NCBI RefSeq assembly: GCF_019232825.1 | Contig: NZ_JAFAND010000035.1 | Location: 62,001 to 126,000, forward strand | Reading direction: 5' to 3' | From: Paludibacterium sp. | Lineage (GTDB): Bacteria; Pseudomonadota; Gammaproteobacteria; Burkholderiales; Chromobacteriaceae | Length of the DNA: 64,000 nt | Program-made: the position numbers and the translations under genes | In this document: piece after piece, positions 5,189 through 64,000 of the stretch | How positions within the stretch are numbered: position 1 is the first letter of the stretch | How the letters are laid out: every line of letters starts with the position of its first letter | The notes under the pieces: model-generated | Told to the model about the DNA's origin: nothing | What the model saw: the letters and a program-made list of their open reading frames with translations, nothing else | The model's database searches: none

Positions 5189-6612
5189 CAGCGCACCATC
5201 CACTTCAACAACCGGCGCGCCAAACCGCCATAGGGCGGCAGCAACATCCAGCGCGTGTTGAGCCGCGGCTGGCGGTAGACCGGCTTGAGTTTGGAAAACG
5301 TCAAAAAGCCCTCGTAGCCATGGTAGTGCCCCATGCCGGAGGGACCGACGCCGCCGAACGGCAGGTCGTCCTGGATCACATGCAGCATGGTTTCGTTGAC
5401 CACCACCCCGCCCGACACCGTCCGTTTCAGCACCGCCGTTTGCGTGCGCTTGTCGTCGCTGAGCAGATACAGGGCCAGCGGGCGTGGCCGCCGGTTGATA
5501 TAGTCGATCGCCTGATCCAGATTGTCGTACTCGACCAGCGGCAATACCGGCCCGAAGATTTCCTCCCGCATCAGCGTCGCGTCGTCCGGACACTGCCAAA
5601 CCAGCGTCAACGGCAGCTTGCGCCGCTCGGCGAGCGACTCGCCGCGCGGGTTGATCGCCCGCACTTCTGCGCCGGCCGCGCGCGCGCCCTCGATCCAGCC
5701 AGACAAGCGCTCGTAGTGGCGCGGACTGATGATGGCGGTGTAATCGGCATTGTCGGCCAGGGACGGATAAAGCCGGGTCGCGGCCTCGGCAAGCGCGTCG
5801 ATCAGCGCTTGCCGGCGGCCGCGCGGCACCAGCACATAATCCGGCGCCACGCAGGTTTGCCCGGCGTTCATGAGCTTGCCGGCGGCAATTACCGTAGCGG
5901 CGCGCGCCAGGTCGGCATCCGGCGCCACCAGCGCCGGCGACTTGCCGCCCAACTCCAACGTCACCGGCGTCAAGTTGTCCGCCGCCGCGCGCATGACATC
6001 GCGCCCCACCGGCGTCGAGCCGGTGAACAGCAGGTGATCAAACGGCAAACGGCAAAATTGCTGCGCCAATTCGACCGGGCCATTGAACACGCGCACCACG
6101 TCACGCCCGAGCGCCTGTTCGAGCAATTCGGCCAGCAACGCGCCGGTACGCGGCGTAAATTCCGACATTTTGATCATCGCGCGGTTGCCGGCGGCGAGCG
6201 CAGAGACCAGCGGCCCAAGCGCCAAAAACAGCGGGTAATTCCAAGGCACGACGATGCCGACCACACCCAGCGGCTGCGGCAGGACTTGATTGCTGGCCGG
6301 CGCGAACCACACCGACACCGCGCGGCGCTGCGGCCGCATCCAGCGCTTAAGGTGCCGCTGCGCATGACGGATGCCCGCCAACGAGGGAAACAGCTCCGCC
6401 AGCCGGGTTTCGACCGGGCTGCGGTGGCCGAAATCGGCGCTAATGGCATCGGCAATGGCGTCTTGCTGCGCAACCAGCATGGCGGCCAGGCGCGCCAGGC
6501 GTTGGCGGCGCGCAGCCAAATCGGACCACGGGTCATGGCGGCTGGCCTCGCGCATGGCGGCAAACGCCGCTTCGAGCACAGCGACCTCGGACATGGGGGA
6601 CGGGCTACCCAT
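5188..6612 (-). CDS. Coniferyl-aldehyde-type aldehyde dehydrogenase (LaoC-like)
   Basis: The 474-aa NAD(P)-dependent aldehyde dehydrogenase should convert the aldehyde made by the neighbouring GMC enzyme to the acid. Visible motifs are VPWNYPLFLALGP, LFTGSTPVGRDV, ELGGKSPALV with the general-base Glu, and NAGQTCVAPDYV with the catalytic Cys. Two adjacent ATGs (6615, 6612) follow an AAGGAG ribosome-binding site; the second has the better spacing. First gene of the three-gene operon, transcribed divergently from the LpxO-like gene. Confidence 0.92.
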   Translation of the reverse strand: MGSPSPMSEVAVLEAAFAAMREASRHDPWSDLAARRQRLARLAAMLVAQQDAIADAISADFGHRSPVETRLAELFPSLAGIRHAQRHLKRWMRPQRRAVSVWFAPASNQVLPQPLGVVGIVVPWNYPLFLALGPLVSALAAGNRAMIKMSEFTPRTGALLAELLEQALGRDVVRVFNGPVELAQQFCRLPFDHLLFTGSTPVGRDVMRAAADNLTPVTLELGGKSPALVAPDADLARAATVIAAGKLMNAGQTCVAPDYVLVPRGRRQALIDALAEAATRLYPSLADNADYTAIISPRHYERLSGWIEGARAAGAEVRAINPRGESLAERRKLPLTLVWQCPDDATLMREEIFGPVLPLVEYDNLDQAIDYINRRPRPLALYLLSDDKRTQTAVLKRTVSGGVVVNETMLHVIQDDLPFGGVGPSGMGHYHGYEGFLTFSKLKPVYRQPRLNTRWMLLPPYGGLARRLLKWMVR

Positions 6613-58812: not shown

Positions 58813-59577
58813 ATGAAGCTGCTGATCTACTCGGACCTGCACAACGAATTCACCCCCTTTACCGCCATAGACGACGCCTGCGCCGCCGCCGACGTCATCG
58901 TGCTGGCCGGCGACGTCGACCTCCATTGCCGTGGCGTGCGCTGGGCACAGGCACTCAGCGCGCAGGCGGACGGCAAACCGGTGCTGATGGTGGCCGGCAA
59001 CCACGAGTTCTATAACGGCCACTTCACCCGGACACTGGCCGAGATGCGCCGAACCGCACAGGGCAGCACGGTGCACGTGTTGGAGAACGATGTCATCACC
59101 CTCGATGGCGTACGTTTTCTCGGCTGCTCGCTGTGGACCGACTTCGCGCTTTATGGCGACCCGGTTCCGGCAGCCCAAGCCGCCGGCCGCGGCATGAACG
59201 ACTACCGCCTGATCGGCCAGGGAGACGACGAACATTCGCTCAGACCGGAAGACACACTGTCGCGGCACCGCCTGTCGCGCGCCTGGCTCGCGCAGCAATT
59301 GAAGCAGCCATTCGACGGCCCGACCGTAGTCATCACCCACCACGCCCCCAGCGGCCGGTCCCTGCCGCCATCGCGCCAAGGCGAGGTGGTGTCGCCCGCC
59401 TACGCCAGCAACCTGGAAAACCTCGTCGGCGCGCCGGTCGCCTTGTGGATACACGGCCATATCCACAGCTCGTGCGATTACATCCTCCACGGCACCCGCG
59501 TGATCTGCAACCCACGCGGCTACATGCCGATCCAGCCCAACCCGCAGTTCAACCCGGCGTGCCTGATCGAACTCTGA
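58813..59577 (+). CDS. Calcineurin-like metallophosphoesterase
   Basis: The 254-aa protein has the complete metal-site set: YSDLHNEF, LAGDVDLHC, VAGNHEFYNG, ITHHAPSG and WIHGHIHSS. Substrates are unknown; related proteins hydrolyse phosphodiesters or nucleotides. There is no signal peptide, so it is probably cytosolic. Single gene. Confidence 0.9.
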   Translation: MKLLIYSDLHNEFTPFTAIDDACAAADVIVLAGDVDLHCRGVRWAQALSAQADGKPVLMVAGNHEFYNGHFTRTLAEMRRTAQGSTVHVLENDVITLDGVRFLGCSLWTDFALYGDPVPAAQAAGRGMNDYRLIGQGDDEHSLRPEDTLSRHRLSRAWLAQQLKQPFDGPTVVITHHAPSGRSLPPSRQGEVVSPAYASNLENLVGAPVALWIHGHIHSSCDYILHGTRVICNPRGYMPIQPNPQFNPACLIEL

Positions 59578-59700
59578 CCCAGCGAAAAAACAGCAGCATC
59601 GCGCAGCGCCGGCACAGCGCACCCAAATTAGCTTGCATAACAAAAGCTAATTATTTATTCTCACAATTACAAATGCATAAAACAGAAGAGGACGGCAGTC

Positions 59701-60204
59701 ATGACAAAAGGTTCATTCGAGGAAATGAACTGCCCGATCGCACAAACCCTGCAAGTCGTCGGGGAATGGTGGTCGTTACTGATCGTGCGCAATGCCTTTT
59801 GCGGCATGCGCCACTTTGACGAGTTCCAGCAGCACCTGGGCATCAGCAGCAACATCCTGTCGGCCAGACTGGCGCATCTGACCCAGAACGGCATTCTGCA
59901 ACGCAGCGAGGCGCAGGACGACCGGCGCAAGGTCTGCTATCGGCTGACAGAAAAGGGAGAGGCGCTCTATCCGATTTTGATTGCCATGACCGCCTGGGGC
60001 GAGCGTTGGCAACCGGGGGAGGACGGGCCGCGCCTGGTGTTGACCGAGCGCGCGACGGGGCTTGCCGTCGCCGGCGTGGCGGCGATCTCCGTCGACGGGC
60101 GCCCGTTGTCGTTGGATGCCCTGGAATTACAAGCGGGACCCGGCGCGGATCAGCGTACCCAGATGTTGGTCGAGGCCCGATTGACCGCCCAGGCAAATCA
60201 GTGA
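59701..60204 (+). CDS. HxlR-family transcriptional regulator
   Basis: The 167-aa winged-helix protein begins MTKGSFEEMNCPIAQTLQVVG with the conserved N-terminal Cys (C11) used for redox or electrophile sensing in many HxlR members, then GEWWSLLIVRNAF, FQQHLGISSNILSARLAHLTQNGIL and the wing RRKVCYRLTEKG. A longer C-terminus (about 105–167) exceeds the family core. GAGGA precedes ATG 59701. It heads the acyl cluster that follows and probably controls it. Confidence 0.88.
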   Translation: MTKGSFEEMNCPIAQTLQVVGEWWSLLIVRNAFCGMRHFDEFQQHLGISSNILSARLAHLTQNGILQRSEAQDDRRKVCYRLTEKGEALYPILIAMTAWGERWQPGEDGPRLVLTERATGLAVAGVAAISVDGRPLSLDALELQAGPGADQRTQMLVEARLTAQANQ

Positions 60205-60243
60205 GCAACCGCATTTCCACAAACCAACCATGAAAGGATAGCG

Positions 60244-61926
60244 ATGGCGAATGACCGGATTTGGCTTAAATCCTACCCGCCGGGCGTGCCCGCGGAGATC
60301 GACCCCGCGGCCTATGCGTCACTGACGCAGCTGATGGCGCAGTCGTTTCAGCAGCACGCACAACGCAAGGCGTACAGCTGCATGGGGCACAGCATGCGCT
60401 ACGGCGAGCTGGACCAGCAGTCGCGCGCCCTGGCTGCCTGGCTGCAATCCGCCGGCCTGATGCGCGGTAGCCGCGTGGCCGTGATGATGCCAAACATCCT
60501 GCAGTATCCGCTGGCCGTGGCGGCGATCTTGCGTGCCGGCATGACGGTGGTCAACGTTAACCCACTGTATACGCCGCGCGAATTGTTGCATCAGCTAAAT
60601 GATTCCGGCGCCGAAGCCATCATTGTGCTGGAGAACTTTGCCTCGACGCTGGCGGAGGTGCTGGCCAAGACCAGCGTACGTCATGTGCTGTTGACCCGCC
60701 TGGGGGATTTGCTTGGACCGTTGCAAGGCCCGCTGACCAACCTGGTGGTGCGCAAAGTAAAAAAAATGGTGCCGCCCTATCGGTTGCCGCAGGCGGTCTG
60801 GCTAAAAACCGCGCTGGCGAAGGGGCACTCGCTACCGTTGCAGCCGGTGGACTTGGGACACGAGGACATCGCTTTCCTGCAATATACCGGCGGCACCACC
60901 GGGGTAGCCAAGGGAGCGGTGCTGACACATCGCAATATCATTGCCAATATGCTGCAAAACGATGCCTGGGCTGGCGTCGTGCTGCGCCGGGTCGAGGGGC
61001 AGTTGGTGATTTTGTCGGCCCTGCCGCTGTATCACATCCTATCGTTGACCGCCTGCATGATGATGGGGACGCATTGGGGGGCGCACGCCATTCTGATTCC
61101 CAATCCGCGCGATATGCCGGGGCTGGTTAAAACCCTGGCGCGGCACCGGGTGCATTTCTTCCCTGGCGTCAACACGCTGTTCAATGGCTTGCTGAATCAA
61201 CCCGGGATTGCGCGGGTCGATTTTTCTCAATTGAAGATCTCGCTCGGCGGCGGCATGGCCGTACTCGCCACCACCAGCGAACGTTGGCAAAAGGTCACGG
61301 GAACGCCGATTCTGGAAGGCTACGGACTGACGGAAACCTCGCCTTGCGCGACGCTCAATCCACCAGACATCAAGGGCTTTACCGGCGCCATCGGCTTGCC
61401 GATCCCCTCCACCGACATTGCGATTCTGGACGACGGCGGCAATCATCTGCCGCCCGGCTCGGCGGGAGAAATCGCCATTCGCGGGCCGCAAGTGATGCGC
61501 GGCTACTGGAACCGCCCGCGGGACACTGCCCAGGTGATGACCGCCGACGGCTTTTTCCGTACGGGAGACGTGGGCGTGATGGACGCCGCCGGCTTCGTGC
61601 GCATCGTCGACCGCAAAAAAGACATGATCCTGGTGTCCGGTTTCAACGTGTATCCGAACGAGATCGAAGCCGTGATCTCCACGCACCCCGGCGTGCTGGA
61701 GTGCGCCTGTATCGGCGTGCCCGACGCGCAGAGCGGCGAAGCGGTCAAATTGTTCGTGGTGCCGCGCGATCCCGCGCTGAACGCGGAGCAGCTGCTGCAA
61801 TTCTGCAAGGAACAACTGACCGGTTATAAAAAACCCCGCTATATCGTATTCCGCAACGAGCTGCCAAAAACCAACGTCGGCAAGATTCTCCGCCGCGCGT
61901 TGCGCGAAGAGCAGCAGCCGTCCTGA
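60244..61926 (+). CDS. Long-chain fatty-acyl-CoA ligase (FadD-like)
   Basis: The 560-aa adenylate-forming enzyme activates a carboxylic acid to the acyl-CoA. Motifs are the AMP-binding YTGGTTGVAKGAVLTHRN, the middle GYGLTETSPCATLNPP and the C-terminal FRTGDVGVMDAAGFVRIVDR and KTNVGKILRRAL with the catalytic Lys. It sits 39 bp after the HxlR gene and upstream of a diiron oxygenase gene. A dedicated acid substrate seems likely, since fad genes elsewhere in the window do not include this cluster. Confidence 0.92.
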   Translation: MANDRIWLKSYPPGVPAEIDPAAYASLTQLMAQSFQQHAQRKAYSCMGHSMRYGELDQQSRALAAWLQSAGLMRGSRVAVMMPNILQYPLAVAAILRAGMTVVNVNPLYTPRELLHQLNDSGAEAIIVLENFASTLAEVLAKTSVRHVLLTRLGDLLGPLQGPLTNLVVRKVKKMVPPYRLPQAVWLKTALAKGHSLPLQPVDLGHEDIAFLQYTGGTTGVAKGAVLTHRNIIANMLQNDAWAGVVLRRVEGQLVILSALPLYHILSLTACMMMGTHWGAHAILIPNPRDMPGLVKTLARHRVHFFPGVNTLFNGLLNQPGIARVDFSQLKISLGGGMAVLATTSERWQKVTGTPILEGYGLTETSPCATLNPPDIKGFTGAIGLPIPSTDIAILDDGGNHLPPGSAGEIAIRGPQVMRGYWNRPRDTAQVMTADGFFRTGDVGVMDAAGFVRIVDRKKDMILVSGFNVYPNEIEAVISTHPGVLECACIGVPDAQSGEAVKLFVVPRDPALNAEQLLQFCKEQLTGYKKPRYIVFRNELPKTNVGKILRRALREEQQPS

Positions 61927-61970
61927 GGGAGTCTCCCACTGATTGCTTCACACACACGAGGAAAAACGAG

Positions 61971-62882
61971 ATGGAAGCGACGCTACAAGAAAGCAATCCG
62001 ATCGTCATGGACGATCCAAGCCGCAAGATGGTGCGCACCTTGATCGGGGCTTCGCACCGCAAGTTACTGATGCTGGATTCCGTTGTGGATTGGCAATGCG
62101 GGGTGGACCGCGCCAATCTGCCCAAACTCGAACAAGCAGCATGGATGTATGGTACGCCGTACTGGGATCAGCTGACACCTGAGCAAAAGAACGAAGTACT
62201 GTGGCTGGAAACCTCACGCGACGTTTCGTACTTCATCTGGCTGGAGCAGGCGCTGCCGGTGCTGTACGTCGGGTACGTTAATCAGTATCACGACGTGCTG
62301 ACACCGGATATTCGCGAGTACCTGATGATTTTCTCGCGCGAGGAAATCGTGCACACGCTGATGTTCCGCCGCTATCTGGAAGTCGCGAACCTACCGTTGT
62401 GGAGCCATCCGGAAAGCATTCCGCAGTTTTCTCAGTTTGAATCGCAGTTGCCGGTGCTGCACCCTGTCTACGGTATTTTGTGGAATCTGCTGATCGAGTG
62501 GTTCGCCGAACTGAACTCGATCTATCAAACGCAACACGAGGGTATCGACCCGCTGACGCGCAGCATGTTCAAGGAACATCACATGGAGGAGGTGCGGCAC
62601 ATCGCCTTTGCCAAGAGCGTGGTGGAAAACTATTTTGCTCAGGCGCCGGGCGATGAATTCAAGCAAGTACAGGCATTTTTCCGCAAGGGCTATCAGTTCC
62701 TGGTCGACGAATACACCTATATGCCCGAGATTGCCCGCTTTACCTCGTTTGAGTTCCCGATACAGCCGCACGAAACGCAGAAGATTGCAGAAATTCGCCA
62801 ATCGGAAAGCAATCGAAAACTGAATGAAATCCGTTTTCGGGACGTGAACGAATGGTGCAAGCGCTACGGCATCATTGACTGA
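61971..62882 (+). CDS. AurF-like non-heme diiron oxygenase
   Basis: The 303-aa protein has the ligand set of AurF-type diiron N-oxygenases and related oxidases: E92 (IWLEQALP), E125xxH128 (SREEIVH), E176 (NLLIEWFAEL), H203 and E207xxH210 (EHHMEEVRH). Spacing between ligands, including H-x3-E-x2-H, matches AurF. It lies 44 bp after the acyl-CoA ligase gene. The reaction could be hydroxylation, N-oxidation or desaturation of an acyl substrate; this is inference from context. Confidence 0.85.
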   Translation: MEATLQESNPIVMDDPSRKMVRTLIGASHRKLLMLDSVVDWQCGVDRANLPKLEQAAWMYGTPYWDQLTPEQKNEVLWLETSRDVSYFIWLEQALPVLYVGYVNQYHDVLTPDIREYLMIFSREEIVHTLMFRRYLEVANLPLWSHPESIPQFSQFESQLPVLHPVYGILWNLLIEWFAELNSIYQTQHEGIDPLTRSMFKEHHMEEVRHIAFAKSVVENYFAQAPGDEFKQVQAFFRKGYQFLVDEYTYMPEIARFTSFEFPIQPHETQKIAEIRQSESNRKLNEIRFRDVNEWCKRYGIID

Positions 62883-62962
62883 ACGCGCTTCTTCCGCCGT
62901 GGAAGCCTCCGCGGCGGTTTCCTGACTGCTTTCACTATCTTGCTGCTGCAAGGGGGCTTCCT

Positions 62963-63757
62963 ATGCTCGACATTCTTCCGCTTCAGAGTTCGTATCACAT
63001 CGCCGAACTACGTATTGCCAAGCCACCGGCGCATTTCATGGATCTGGAAACCCTGCGCGCGCTGCGGCATGCCTACGAGCAGGCCGAGGCCGAGGGTTGG
63101 CAAGGCTTGATATTGTCTGGCGTGCCCGGTTTTTTTTCTTCCGGCATCGATCTCATTCCGCTACTGCAAAGCGATGTGGCCGCCGTGCATGACTATTGGC
63201 ACGCCGTGTTCGATCTTGCCTGCGCGATGGCGCGCAGCCCCATACCGACCATTGCCGCCATTACCGGCCACTGCCTTGCGTCGGGCACTCTGCTGGCGCT
63301 CTTTGCCGATTATCGCCTCATGGCACAAGGCAACTGGGGTATCGGCCTGAATGAAGTCCGTGCCGGCGTGGCATTACCGGATTGTTTCCAGTTGCCGCTG
63401 CGCCGGGCGGTGGGCGTGCGTCAGGCCGAGCAGATGCTGGTCTTCGGTCGGATTCTCACGCCGCAGCAAGCCTTGAACATCGGGCTGGTGGATGAGTTGG
63501 CTGAGCCGGAGGCATTGCTGGACTTGGCCGTGCAACGGCTGGAAGCCTTGCTGGCGCTTCCGGCGCACAGCATGCGCTCCACTCGCGCCATTAGCCGTCA
63601 GGATCTGTCGAATGTTTTTACCGAGGTTGACGCGCTGCCGGTAGAGGATTTTGTCCAGGCGTTTCTCGACGCCCAAACACAGACGGCGTTACGCCGGGTC
63701 GCCGATGAGATCGTACGTAAGGCGACCCGGACCGGACGCGCTGTCAACGGACCATGA
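62963..63757 (+). CDS. Crotonase-family (enoyl-CoA hydratase/isomerase) protein of the diiron cluster
   Basis: The 264-aa protein has the oxyanion-hole element GVPGFFSSGIDLIPLL and the helix GHCLASGTLLALFADYRL. Glu in LNEVRAG occupies the hydratase catalytic position and QAEQMLVFG supplies the second candidate acid. AAGGGGGC precedes the ATG. It continues the acyl-tailoring run with the ligase and diiron oxygenase. Confidence 0.87.
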   Translation: MLDILPLQSSYHIAELRIAKPPAHFMDLETLRALRHAYEQAEAEGWQGLILSGVPGFFSSGIDLIPLLQSDVAAVHDYWHAVFDLACAMARSPIPTIAAITGHCLASGTLLALFADYRLMAQGNWGIGLNEVRAGVALPDCFQLPLRRAVGVRQAEQMLVFGRILTPQQALNIGLVDELAEPEALLDLAVQRLEALLALPAHSMRSTRAISRQDLSNVFTEVDALPVEDFVQAFLDAQTQTALRRVADEIVRKATRTGRAVNGP

Positions 63758-63785
63758 TGGGAACGGGTTCTCGCCGGAGGCTGCC

Positions 63786-64000
63786 ATGAATTTGTACTTG
63801 CGACTGCTGTATACCTGGATCCGCGCCTGCTTCAAATCTCGTATTCAAATCGGGGATGTGATCGAACTGGCATTGACGGTATTGCCCAATGACCTGGATT
63901 TCAACGGACACATGAATAATGGCCGTTACATGACCATTGTCGATTTGGGCCTGATCGAATACATGACGCGATGCGGTTTTTTGCGGCAAGCGCTTAAGCG
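63786..64000 (+). CDS. Acyl-CoA thioesterase-like hotdog protein, 3' truncated
   Basis: The frame runs to the window end, giving 71 complete codons. It begins MNLYLRLLYTWIRACFKSRI and shows the hotdog motif LPNDLDFNGHMNNGRYMTI with the conserved Asp and the following helix, as in THEM6-like thioesterases. It starts 28 bp after the crotonase stop and is probably in the same transcript. The C-terminus and catalytic completeness cannot be judged. Confidence 0.8.
   Translation, partial: MNLYLRLLYTWIRACFKSRIQIGDVIELALTVLPNDLDFNGHMNNGRYMTIVDLGLIEYMTRCGFLRQALK

Follow-up and report, generated by a model that had tools for sequence, protein, structure and literature searches.

A conserved gene cluster in Paludibacterium places an AurF-family diiron protein among fatty acyl enzymes and may tailor a long-chain fatty acid

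AurF itself acts on an amine, and the chemistry known in its family is N-oxidation, with halogenation known through distant kin; the question raised by the right edge of the window (the whole 64,000-nucleotide stretch of Paludibacterium sp. DNA analyzed here) is what such a diiron protein does in a run of fatty acyl genes. The initial annotation had proposed that an HxlR regulator, an acyl-CoA ligase, the AurF-type protein, a crotonase and a hotdog thioesterase, separated by gaps of 28 to 80 bp, form an acyl tailoring cluster that continues beyond the window. Family and profile matches confirmed all five genes on a single strand in that order (Table 1), and the computed gaps are, in order, 39, 44, 80, and 28 bp. 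The continuation held only for the thioesterase gene (5786 to 6304 in locus L004, the window's own cluster), which crosses the window edge and ends the cluster 304 bp past it; the cluster stops there, since the gene called after it, RhuM-Fic (window-equivalent positions 65030 to 66001), lies on the minus strand, followed by genes named by eye as lipA and lipB. The known catabolic operon that would have spoken against the proposal was not found: no acyl-CoA dehydrogenase, hydroxyacyl-CoA dehydrogenase, or thiolase occurs among the called genes from HxlR to lipA/lipB, and a standard beta-oxidation operon was therefore rejected. The upstream neighbor, a phosphoesterase gene (58813 to 59577), is also absent from the five other genomes of the genus, so the empty-site comparison fixed no insertion edges. 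Our reading, held with about even confidence, is that the cluster is an operon under HxlR control whose products tailor a long-chain fatty acid by ligation, diiron oxidation, isomerization, and release.

Table 1. Features of the cluster, in window positions
Feature	Positions	Strand	Evidence
Candidate operator and promoter	59626..59661	+	Inverted repeat over promoter-like boxes, upstream of HxlR
HxlR-family regulator, 167 aa	59701..60204	+	PF01638, 8.5e-22
FadD-type long-chain acyl-CoA ligase, 560 aa	60244..61926	+	NF005463, PF00501/PF13193, tree
AurF-family ferritin-like diiron oxidase/oxygenase, 303 aa	61971..62882	+	PF11583, 1.5e-19
Crotonase-fold protein, 264 aa	62963..63757	+	PF00378; best solved relatives 1sg4, 1xx4
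Hotdog-fold thioesterase (4HBT_2), 172 aa	63786..64304 (window part 63786..64000)	+	PF13279, 4.7e-19

Comparison with other genomes, in which genes were predicted with a codon-model caller, showed that this arrangement recurs. Close homologues of the diiron protein (66 to 72% identity) were found in nine other genomes, and a ligase and a crotonase accompany the diiron gene in all nine; the contrary outcome, homologues mostly without these partners, did not materialize, since both are present in 10 of 10 genomes at an identity of at least 66%, the window's included. The exact order HxlR-ligase-AurF-crotonase-thioesterase, which the annotation had suggested looking for, is intact in six of the nine and rearranged or shortened in three, and the thioesterase is present in eight, being absent from locus L040. 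Conservation of the cluster in nine other genomes makes a chance run of genes very unlikely. A ligase is retained in 10 of 10 clusters despite at least one exchange: locus L031 carries an unrelated ligase at another position, and the ligase of locus L030 groups in the tree with housekeeping FadDs, with moderate support (86/82). Across the 10 clusters, the conserved block contains no gene besides the five or six named here. The cassette seems to be mobile, and the carriers that have a species name, among them Pseudoduganella buxea and Undibacterium crateris, are strains in culture. Among the 25 diiron matches in the order sample, 23 were distant (23 to 31% identity) and were set aside; surroundings were examined for 7 of these 23, with neighbors assessed visually on the first 60 residues of each and the diiron gene of L056 uncalled. 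By the same inspection, the neighbors in L053 and L054 resemble housekeeping genes, and L057 has a short carrier-protein-like open reading frame adjacent and an AMP-ligase-like gene further off. The 10 plasmid records matched did not exceed 25.4% identity and 70% coverage and were likewise set aside.

A further co-occurring gene, which had been anticipated as support, came to light in eight of the nine other clusters and encodes a putative relative of a flavin-dependent fatty-acid double-bond isomerase. Two of the eight proteins were compared with solved structures, and each matched 2b9w over its length (E 4.9e-38 and 1.3e-37). This is the structure of PAI, the polyunsaturated fatty acid isomerase of Cutibacterium (Propionibacterium) acnes, which forms conjugated linoleic acid, although the proteins of the cluster relatives are distant from PAI. 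In a 343-genome family sample, close orthologues of this gene occurred in exactly the five genomes with a close AurF homologue. No PAI-like gene was found in the window's genome (163 contigs, 99% complete; E 0.001) with a query that recovers orthologues in the family sample and had no positive control within that genome, so that at the sequence level the window's cluster differs from the six-gene form; nor was one found near the cluster in L040, and no remnant above chance was seen beside the window's cluster or in L040. Because the PAI-like gene was not found in the window's genome or at the L040 locus, and the thioesterase is missing from the L040 locus, neither step appears essential to all members.

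Beyond these close relatives, the association of the diiron gene with ligase and crotonase no longer held: in a sister branch at 42 to 50% identity, a carrier protein and a ketosynthase take their place. There the diiron gene stands with genes for ACP, ketosynthase, MaoC dehydratase, FabG, and ferredoxin in 7 of 7 loci, all of which also have a carotenoid-isomerase-like flavoenzyme beside it. Taken over both groups (10 close and 7 sister loci), the diiron gene is accompanied by genes for activating or carrying fatty acyl groups at all 17 loci and by a flavoenzyme related to isomerases at 15. These partner genes associate the diiron lineage with fatty acyl thioesters and not with beta-oxidation genes. 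The sister branch might match the thailandene polyene cluster of Burkholderia; no diiron gene is mentioned in the thailandene passages of two reviews. A transcriptome table for Collimonas (PMC12542777) also contains an AurF gene, which was rejected as part of a different cluster, diaminopimelate decarboxylase and KAS III genes being listed alongside it. Our literature searches gave no description of the five-gene set, in line with the annotation's remark that it knew of no named pathway with exactly this set.

The diiron protein matches PF11583 at 70.7 bits (gathering cut-off, 29.6) over residues 17 to 299 of 303, and the complete ligand set attributed to it was borne out: E92, E125, H128, E176, H203, E207, and H210 (three histidines and four carboxylates) are invariant in 13 of 13 aligned homologues. 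The AurF ligand positions used for this comparison come in part from PMC12101540. The predicted structure (pLDDT 89.5) matched CmlI best (Z 19.9), with ribonucleotide reductase R2 proteins at up to Z 19.0 and AurF at Z 18.7. These scores do not clearly set AurF and CmlI apart from R2, and identity to the two is 12 to 13% across the aligned fold, so the fold does not reveal the reaction. A single-sequence search of solved structures with the protein gave nothing up to E 1, and a profile search gave an R2-like oxidase only (E 0.0016). The AurF Pfam family, matched over nearly the full length, the predicted ferritin-like fold with CmlI as its best match, and the complete seven-ligand 3-His/4-Glu set are all features of the arylamine N-oxygenases AurF and CmlI, and it is conceivable that the protein is a true N-oxygenase oxidizing an amine that is, or becomes, linked to a fatty acid. 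We regard this as quite improbable, given that identity is low, that the conserved set has no amine-making, amino-acid-activating, or amide-forming gene and suggests no amine pathway, and that all 17 loci pair the diiron gene with enzymes of fatty acyl type.

Oxidation of activated fatty acyl chains by AurF-like diiron enzymes has a parallel in the dimetal halogenases CylC and NocO, for which passages of PMC12101540 describe acyl-ACP as substrate. The resemblance of CylC to AurF, the action of its kin NocO on fatty acyl-ACP, and the fatty acyl-AMP ligase reported in passages on some CylC-type clusters would fit an enzyme here that chlorinates a fatty acyl chain; this is scarcely tenable, however, and was rejected on the motif, because ExxQExxH is absent, 13 of 13 homologues having Glu (E124) where that motif has Gln, and the window's protein has HxxEExxH in place of HxxDExxH. 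The two also differ in that the window's branch uses a CoA ligase, whereas CylC and NocO use ACP.

The partner enzymes suggest a CoA-bound long-chain substrate. The ligase scored 911.4 bits against the curated NCBIfam model NF005463 (long-chain-fatty-acid--CoA ligase; cut-off, 869). The crotonase reached no NCBIfam cut-off; its best solved relatives are the mitochondrial delta3-delta2-enoyl-CoA isomerases 1sg4 (3.3e-32) and 1xx4 (3e-27), with which it shares a one-glutamate active site. In nine of nine aligned crotonases, the Glu that we take to be isomerase-type is retained and the presumed hydratase-only Glu is replaced by Leu, and the protein is thus predicted to be most like a delta3-delta2-enoyl-CoA isomerase, although it lies in an oxygenase-thioesterase operon and not among beta-oxidation genes. 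The thioesterase had no meaningful relative among solved structures. A similar logic is found in the phenylacetyl-CoA (Paa) pathway, which combines a CoA ligase with a diiron enzyme that oxidizes a CoA thioester, an isomerase of the crotonase type, and a hotdog thioesterase; that pathway uses the multi-component PaaABCE epoxidase, whereas a single AurF-type protein and a fatty acyl-type ligase are found here, and the present cluster has no ring-cleaving or beta-oxidation genes.

A ligase and a delta3-delta2-enoyl-CoA isomerase are classic helpers in the breakdown of unsaturated fatty acids, a purpose that the pair could serve here just as well, the PAI-like gene of the relatives is akin to that of a linoleate isomerase, and HxlR control suggests induction. 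The cassette might accordingly channel polyunsaturated or oxidized fatty acids from outside the cell into breakdown or detoxification: HxlR would sense them, the ligase would activate them, and the diiron enzyme and isomerases would make their awkward double bonds fit for normal beta-oxidation while the thioesterase relieves CoA trapping. We consider this fairly unlikely: within the conserved blocks of all 10 clusters, whose flanking genes were annotated in part, there is no acyl-CoA dehydrogenase, 2,4-dienoyl-CoA reductase, hydroxyacyl-CoA dehydrogenase, or thiolase, a thioesterase counteracts degradation, and the ACP, ketosynthase, and dehydratase of the sister branch are marks of synthesis. 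The cassette is probably biosynthetic rather than catabolic.

For the tailoring operon, we infer the substrate class, the order of steps, and the diiron reaction as follows. Under HxlR control, the FadD-type ligase would convert a long-chain fatty acid to its acyl-CoA, and the AurF-family enzyme would oxidize the acyl chain with O2, double-bond insertion being our first choice and hydroxylation or epoxidation the second. The isomerase-type crotonase would then shift a double bond on the CoA thioester, and the thioesterase would release the free acid, which in most relatives the PAI-like flavoenzyme may isomerize; this last step is placed after release because free fatty acids are the only substrates of PAI. 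A more specific form of this scheme, unlikely enough that we offer it only tentatively, has the AurF-family protein act as a soluble desaturase of acyl thioesters, inserting a further double bond into an acyl-CoA that is already unsaturated and giving a diene that the crotonase shifts, the thioesterase frees, and, in relatives, the PAI-like enzyme conjugates. If this were so, polyunsaturated or conjugated fatty acids would have a new aerobic route, the diene being made in bacteria that are not known to produce polyunsaturated ones; the AurF family would gain a new reaction, which the sister branch would share in ACP-bound form. More generally, the fatty acyl context in 17 of 17 loci and the flavoenzyme context in 15 of 17 point to unrecorded C-H chemistry on fatty acids. 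As the cassette is small and seems to be both regulated and mobile, and as strains that carry it are in culture, the product is open to direct search; conjugated or polyunsaturated acids, if made, could give the cassette a use in their production.

Regulation of the operon is suggested by the region upstream of HxlR, a probable operator and promoter predicted from its sequence pattern. The inverted repeat AATTAGCTT-9-AAGCTAATT (59626 to 59652), with perfect 9-bp arms, overlies a -35-like TTGCAT (59633 to 59638) that is separated by a 17-bp spacer from a -10-like TATTCT (59656 to 59661), both boxes being read by eye. With a matrix built from five other loci, the window's site scored 25.4 and the second best site in the 64-kb window 17.7; this score is not independent, because the five sites were chosen by eye at a common CTTG after the window's own region had been seen (L048, a near copy of L047, was excluded). 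Of eight upstream regions, four (L004, L032, L047, and L048) have the common repeat among their top-ranking inverted repeats and four (L031, L033, L034, and L040) do not. A similar element lies upstream of HxlR in L032, L047, and L048, where the arms are clear, and in L033, L034, and L040, where the arms are poor and the element is retained as a sequence pattern only; it is not clearly retained in L031 and is absent near the L030 operon. The element also fits upstream of HxlR in L098, a locus fetched later.

The acyl cassette of the window (bases 62001-126000 of contig C22, in a genome of 4.18 Mb and 163 contigs) comprises five genes and ends 304 bp beyond the window. The initial annotation had described genes in one direction with short gaps, in a cluster running on past the edge. 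The arrangement holds, with all five genes on the + strand and gaps of 39, 44, 80 and 28 bp; what lies past the edge is the end of the thioesterase gene but no further cassette gene, the next being an opposed RhuM-Fic gene followed by lipA and lipB, so that the cluster stops at five genes in this genome. Its GC content is 58.9%, versus 61.6% for the window. The phosphoesterase gene on the left was not found in the genus's five other genomes, and the strain-specific stretch therefore probably extends past the cassette itself. The RhuM-Fic gene fuses both domains in a single protein and has a GC content of 56%, below its surroundings.

Genes of the cassette and its neighbors (L004, sequence read past the right edge of the window)
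Feature	Position	Strand	Remark
Calcineurin-like phosphoesterase	58813-59577		Left neighbor
HxlR	59701-60204	+	
FadD-type ligase	60244-61926	+	
AurF-family protein	61971-62882	+	PF11583
Crotonase	62963-63757	+	
Hotdog thioesterase	63786-64304	+	Completed by L004
RhuM-Fic protein	L004 7030-8001 (window-equivalent 65030-66001)	-	Right neighbor
lipA, lipB	Beyond RhuM-Fic gene		Named by eye

Close diiron homologs (66 to 72% identity) were found in nine further genomes, five by scanning genomes with species or strain names (Janthinobacterium sp. CG3, Pseudomonas sp. TTU2014-080ASC, Duganella sp. Root336D2, Pseudoduganella buxea, and Undibacterium crateris) and four from whole-genome samples (G013, G976, G1000, and G1319). 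The initial annotation had proposed searching for the same five-gene order and would have taken conserved co-occurrence with a shared tailoring or transport gene as support. The order HxlR-ligase-AurF-crotonase-thioesterase was kept in six of the nine (loci L032, L033, L034, L047, L048, and L098), followed directly by a sixth gene resembling that for PAI, a flavin-dependent fatty acid double-bond isomerase, and this gene was present in eight of the nine. Locus L030 reads AurF-crotonase-thioesterase-ligase-sixth gene, and HxlR was not found there; L031 reads HxlR-AurF-crotonase-thioesterase-unrelated ligase-sixth gene; L040 holds HxlR-ligase-AurF-crotonase and nothing more of the cassette. Counting the window's own, the ligase and crotonase genes occur in 10/10 loci, those for the thioesterase and HxlR in 9/10, and the sixth gene in 8/10.

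The PF11583 match spans residues 17 to 299 of the 303-residue diiron protein. The AurF-type ligand set, read as complete from the start, was borne out: counterparts of all seven iron ligands are present and invariant in 13/13 aligned homologs (nine close and four sister-branch sequences; L098 and sister loci L069 to L071 were left out). The structure model, of good quality (mean pLDDT, 89.5), had one Foldseek match below 0.001, CmlI (E = 5.6e-4). Fold comparison ranked CmlI first (Z = 19.9, with an rmsd of 3.4 across 267 residues), ahead of a putative class I ribonucleotide reductase protein (Z = 19.0) and AurF (Z = 18.7; rmsd, 4.2 over 286 residues); since rows at most 1 apart count as tied, the modeled fold indicates the superfamily, not the reaction. 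CylC-type halogenases are described as carrying ExxQExxH with a marker Gln (PMC12871659, PMC12101540), whereas all 13 aligned homologs have Glu there.

The crotonase reached no NCBIfam cutoff; its top solved relatives are mitochondrial 3,2-trans-enoyl-CoA isomerases (1sg4, 3.3e-32; 1xx4, 3e-27). Among nine of the 10 cluster crotonases (L098 absent), the glutamate used by isomerases is retained in 9/9, and the additional glutamate of hydratases is Leu in 9/9. The thioesterase motif DxDxNGHMNNGRY is retained in 8/8 aligned sequences. Two of the eight sixth-gene proteins were compared with solved structures, and each had a single clear relative, 2b9w (L034, E = 4.9e-38; L031, E = 1.3e-37), deposited as a putative aminooxidase, which we take to be the Propionibacterium acnes linoleate isomerase, PAI; the remaining six are 52 to 61% identical to the L034 protein. 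A 343-genome family sample was searched with the diiron and then the PAI-like protein (taken as the same sample because the listed genomes agree). The PAI-like protein had close matches (E values of 4.2e-147 or lower) in the same five genomes as the close diiron gene, a pattern explained by their linkage in one operon; within this sample, the close PAI-like gene thus never occurred without the cassette. A sixth match was distant (28%). In the window's genome, no PAI-like gene was matched, and no remnant adjoins the cluster.

We propose that the ligase would convert a fatty acid to acyl-CoA, the diiron protein would oxidize the chain, the crotonase would shift a double bond, the thioesterase would release the acid, and the PAI-like enzyme, where present, would isomerize it. 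This probable order is supported by the L031 ligase, which was exchanged without loss of the step, by the action of PAI on free acid, and by the ACP-based sister branch. Desaturation is the favored diiron reaction, since both isomerases need double bonds and PAI-type enzymes require a polyunsaturated acid; hydroxylation or epoxidation is the second choice. A catabolic or detoxifying role appears fairly unlikely: the cassette lacks the core genes of beta-oxidation and includes a thioesterase, which favors synthesis over breakdown. The initial annotation knew of no named pathway with exactly this set, and no description was found in the open-licence literature searched. The component enzyme families are all known already; the combination appears to be new, as do fatty acyl chains as the substrate class of a nonhalogenase AurF relative.

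Upstream from hxlR, a palindrome overlies a pair of promoter-like boxes, identified by eye, at 59626-59661. An operator matrix built from five other loci gave its window-wide best score there (25.4; next, 17.7) and, in the later-fetched L098, 47.8 directly upstream from hxlR. Four loci (L004, L032, L047, and L048) show the palindrome clearly, and three (L033, L034, and L040) have it in degenerate form; L031 fits the matrix poorly (14.3), and the scan found no operator-like site near the L030 operon. The pattern fits possible self-control by HxlR via this candidate operator.

Diiron matches are rare (E = 1e-30 or better, or 1e-20 for the window's own family; center genomes included): 2/398 genomes in the phylum sample (G013 and the genome of the window itself), 8/343 in the family of L030's genome (five close, three sister branch), 2/248 in that of L031's (one close, one sister), and 5/74, each of them close, in the genus to which G976 belongs. 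The window's own family had 4/61, its own and three sister-branch members, these three within one other genus of 19 genomes; the window's genus had none in its five other genomes. Such scatter is as expected for mobile genes. In the ligase tree (24 rows, midpoint root), the cluster ligase of the window shares a 100/100 branch with those of Janthinobacterium-Duganella-Undibacterium type carriers and lies apart from its own genome's housekeeping FadD, whose partner in the tree is the G013 housekeeping FadD (97/95). The cluster label changes three times, and the L030 ligase lies among housekeeping ligases (86/82); the ligase may therefore have been recruited more than once, with a single origin still conceivable.

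The sister branch (diiron identity, 42 to 50%) comprises seven loci (L049, L050, L051, L052, L069, L070, and L071). All share the order ketosynthase-MaoC dehydratase-ACP-AurF-FAD protein with FabG and ferredoxin nearby, and four add an alpha/beta hydrolase; families were assigned by Pfam for L049 and the extra flavoproteins and otherwise by similarity to L049. L051 and L052 each carry two extra flavoproteins of the same kind, three per locus. For the L049 FAD protein, the top NCBIfam model was carotenoid isomerase (3.1e-27), far under that model's cutoff. A flavoenzyme of the amine oxidase/phytoene desaturase kind thus accompanies the diiron gene in 15/17 loci (eight close, seven sister), the window's and L040 being those without. 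The sister cluster, with no description in the literature searched, has the look of a pathway to a polyene or an unusual fatty acid. Locus L057 (6268-7433, 11593-13413) has a distant AurF-like gene (23% identity) adjoined by a short carrier-protein-like ORF, with an AMP-ligase-like gene farther off; judged by eye, this locus may represent a third kind of acyl cluster. At L053 and L054 (two genomes, one genus), distant AurF-like proteins (27 to 29%) lie beside a gene that is PII-like by eye, unrelated to acyl genes.
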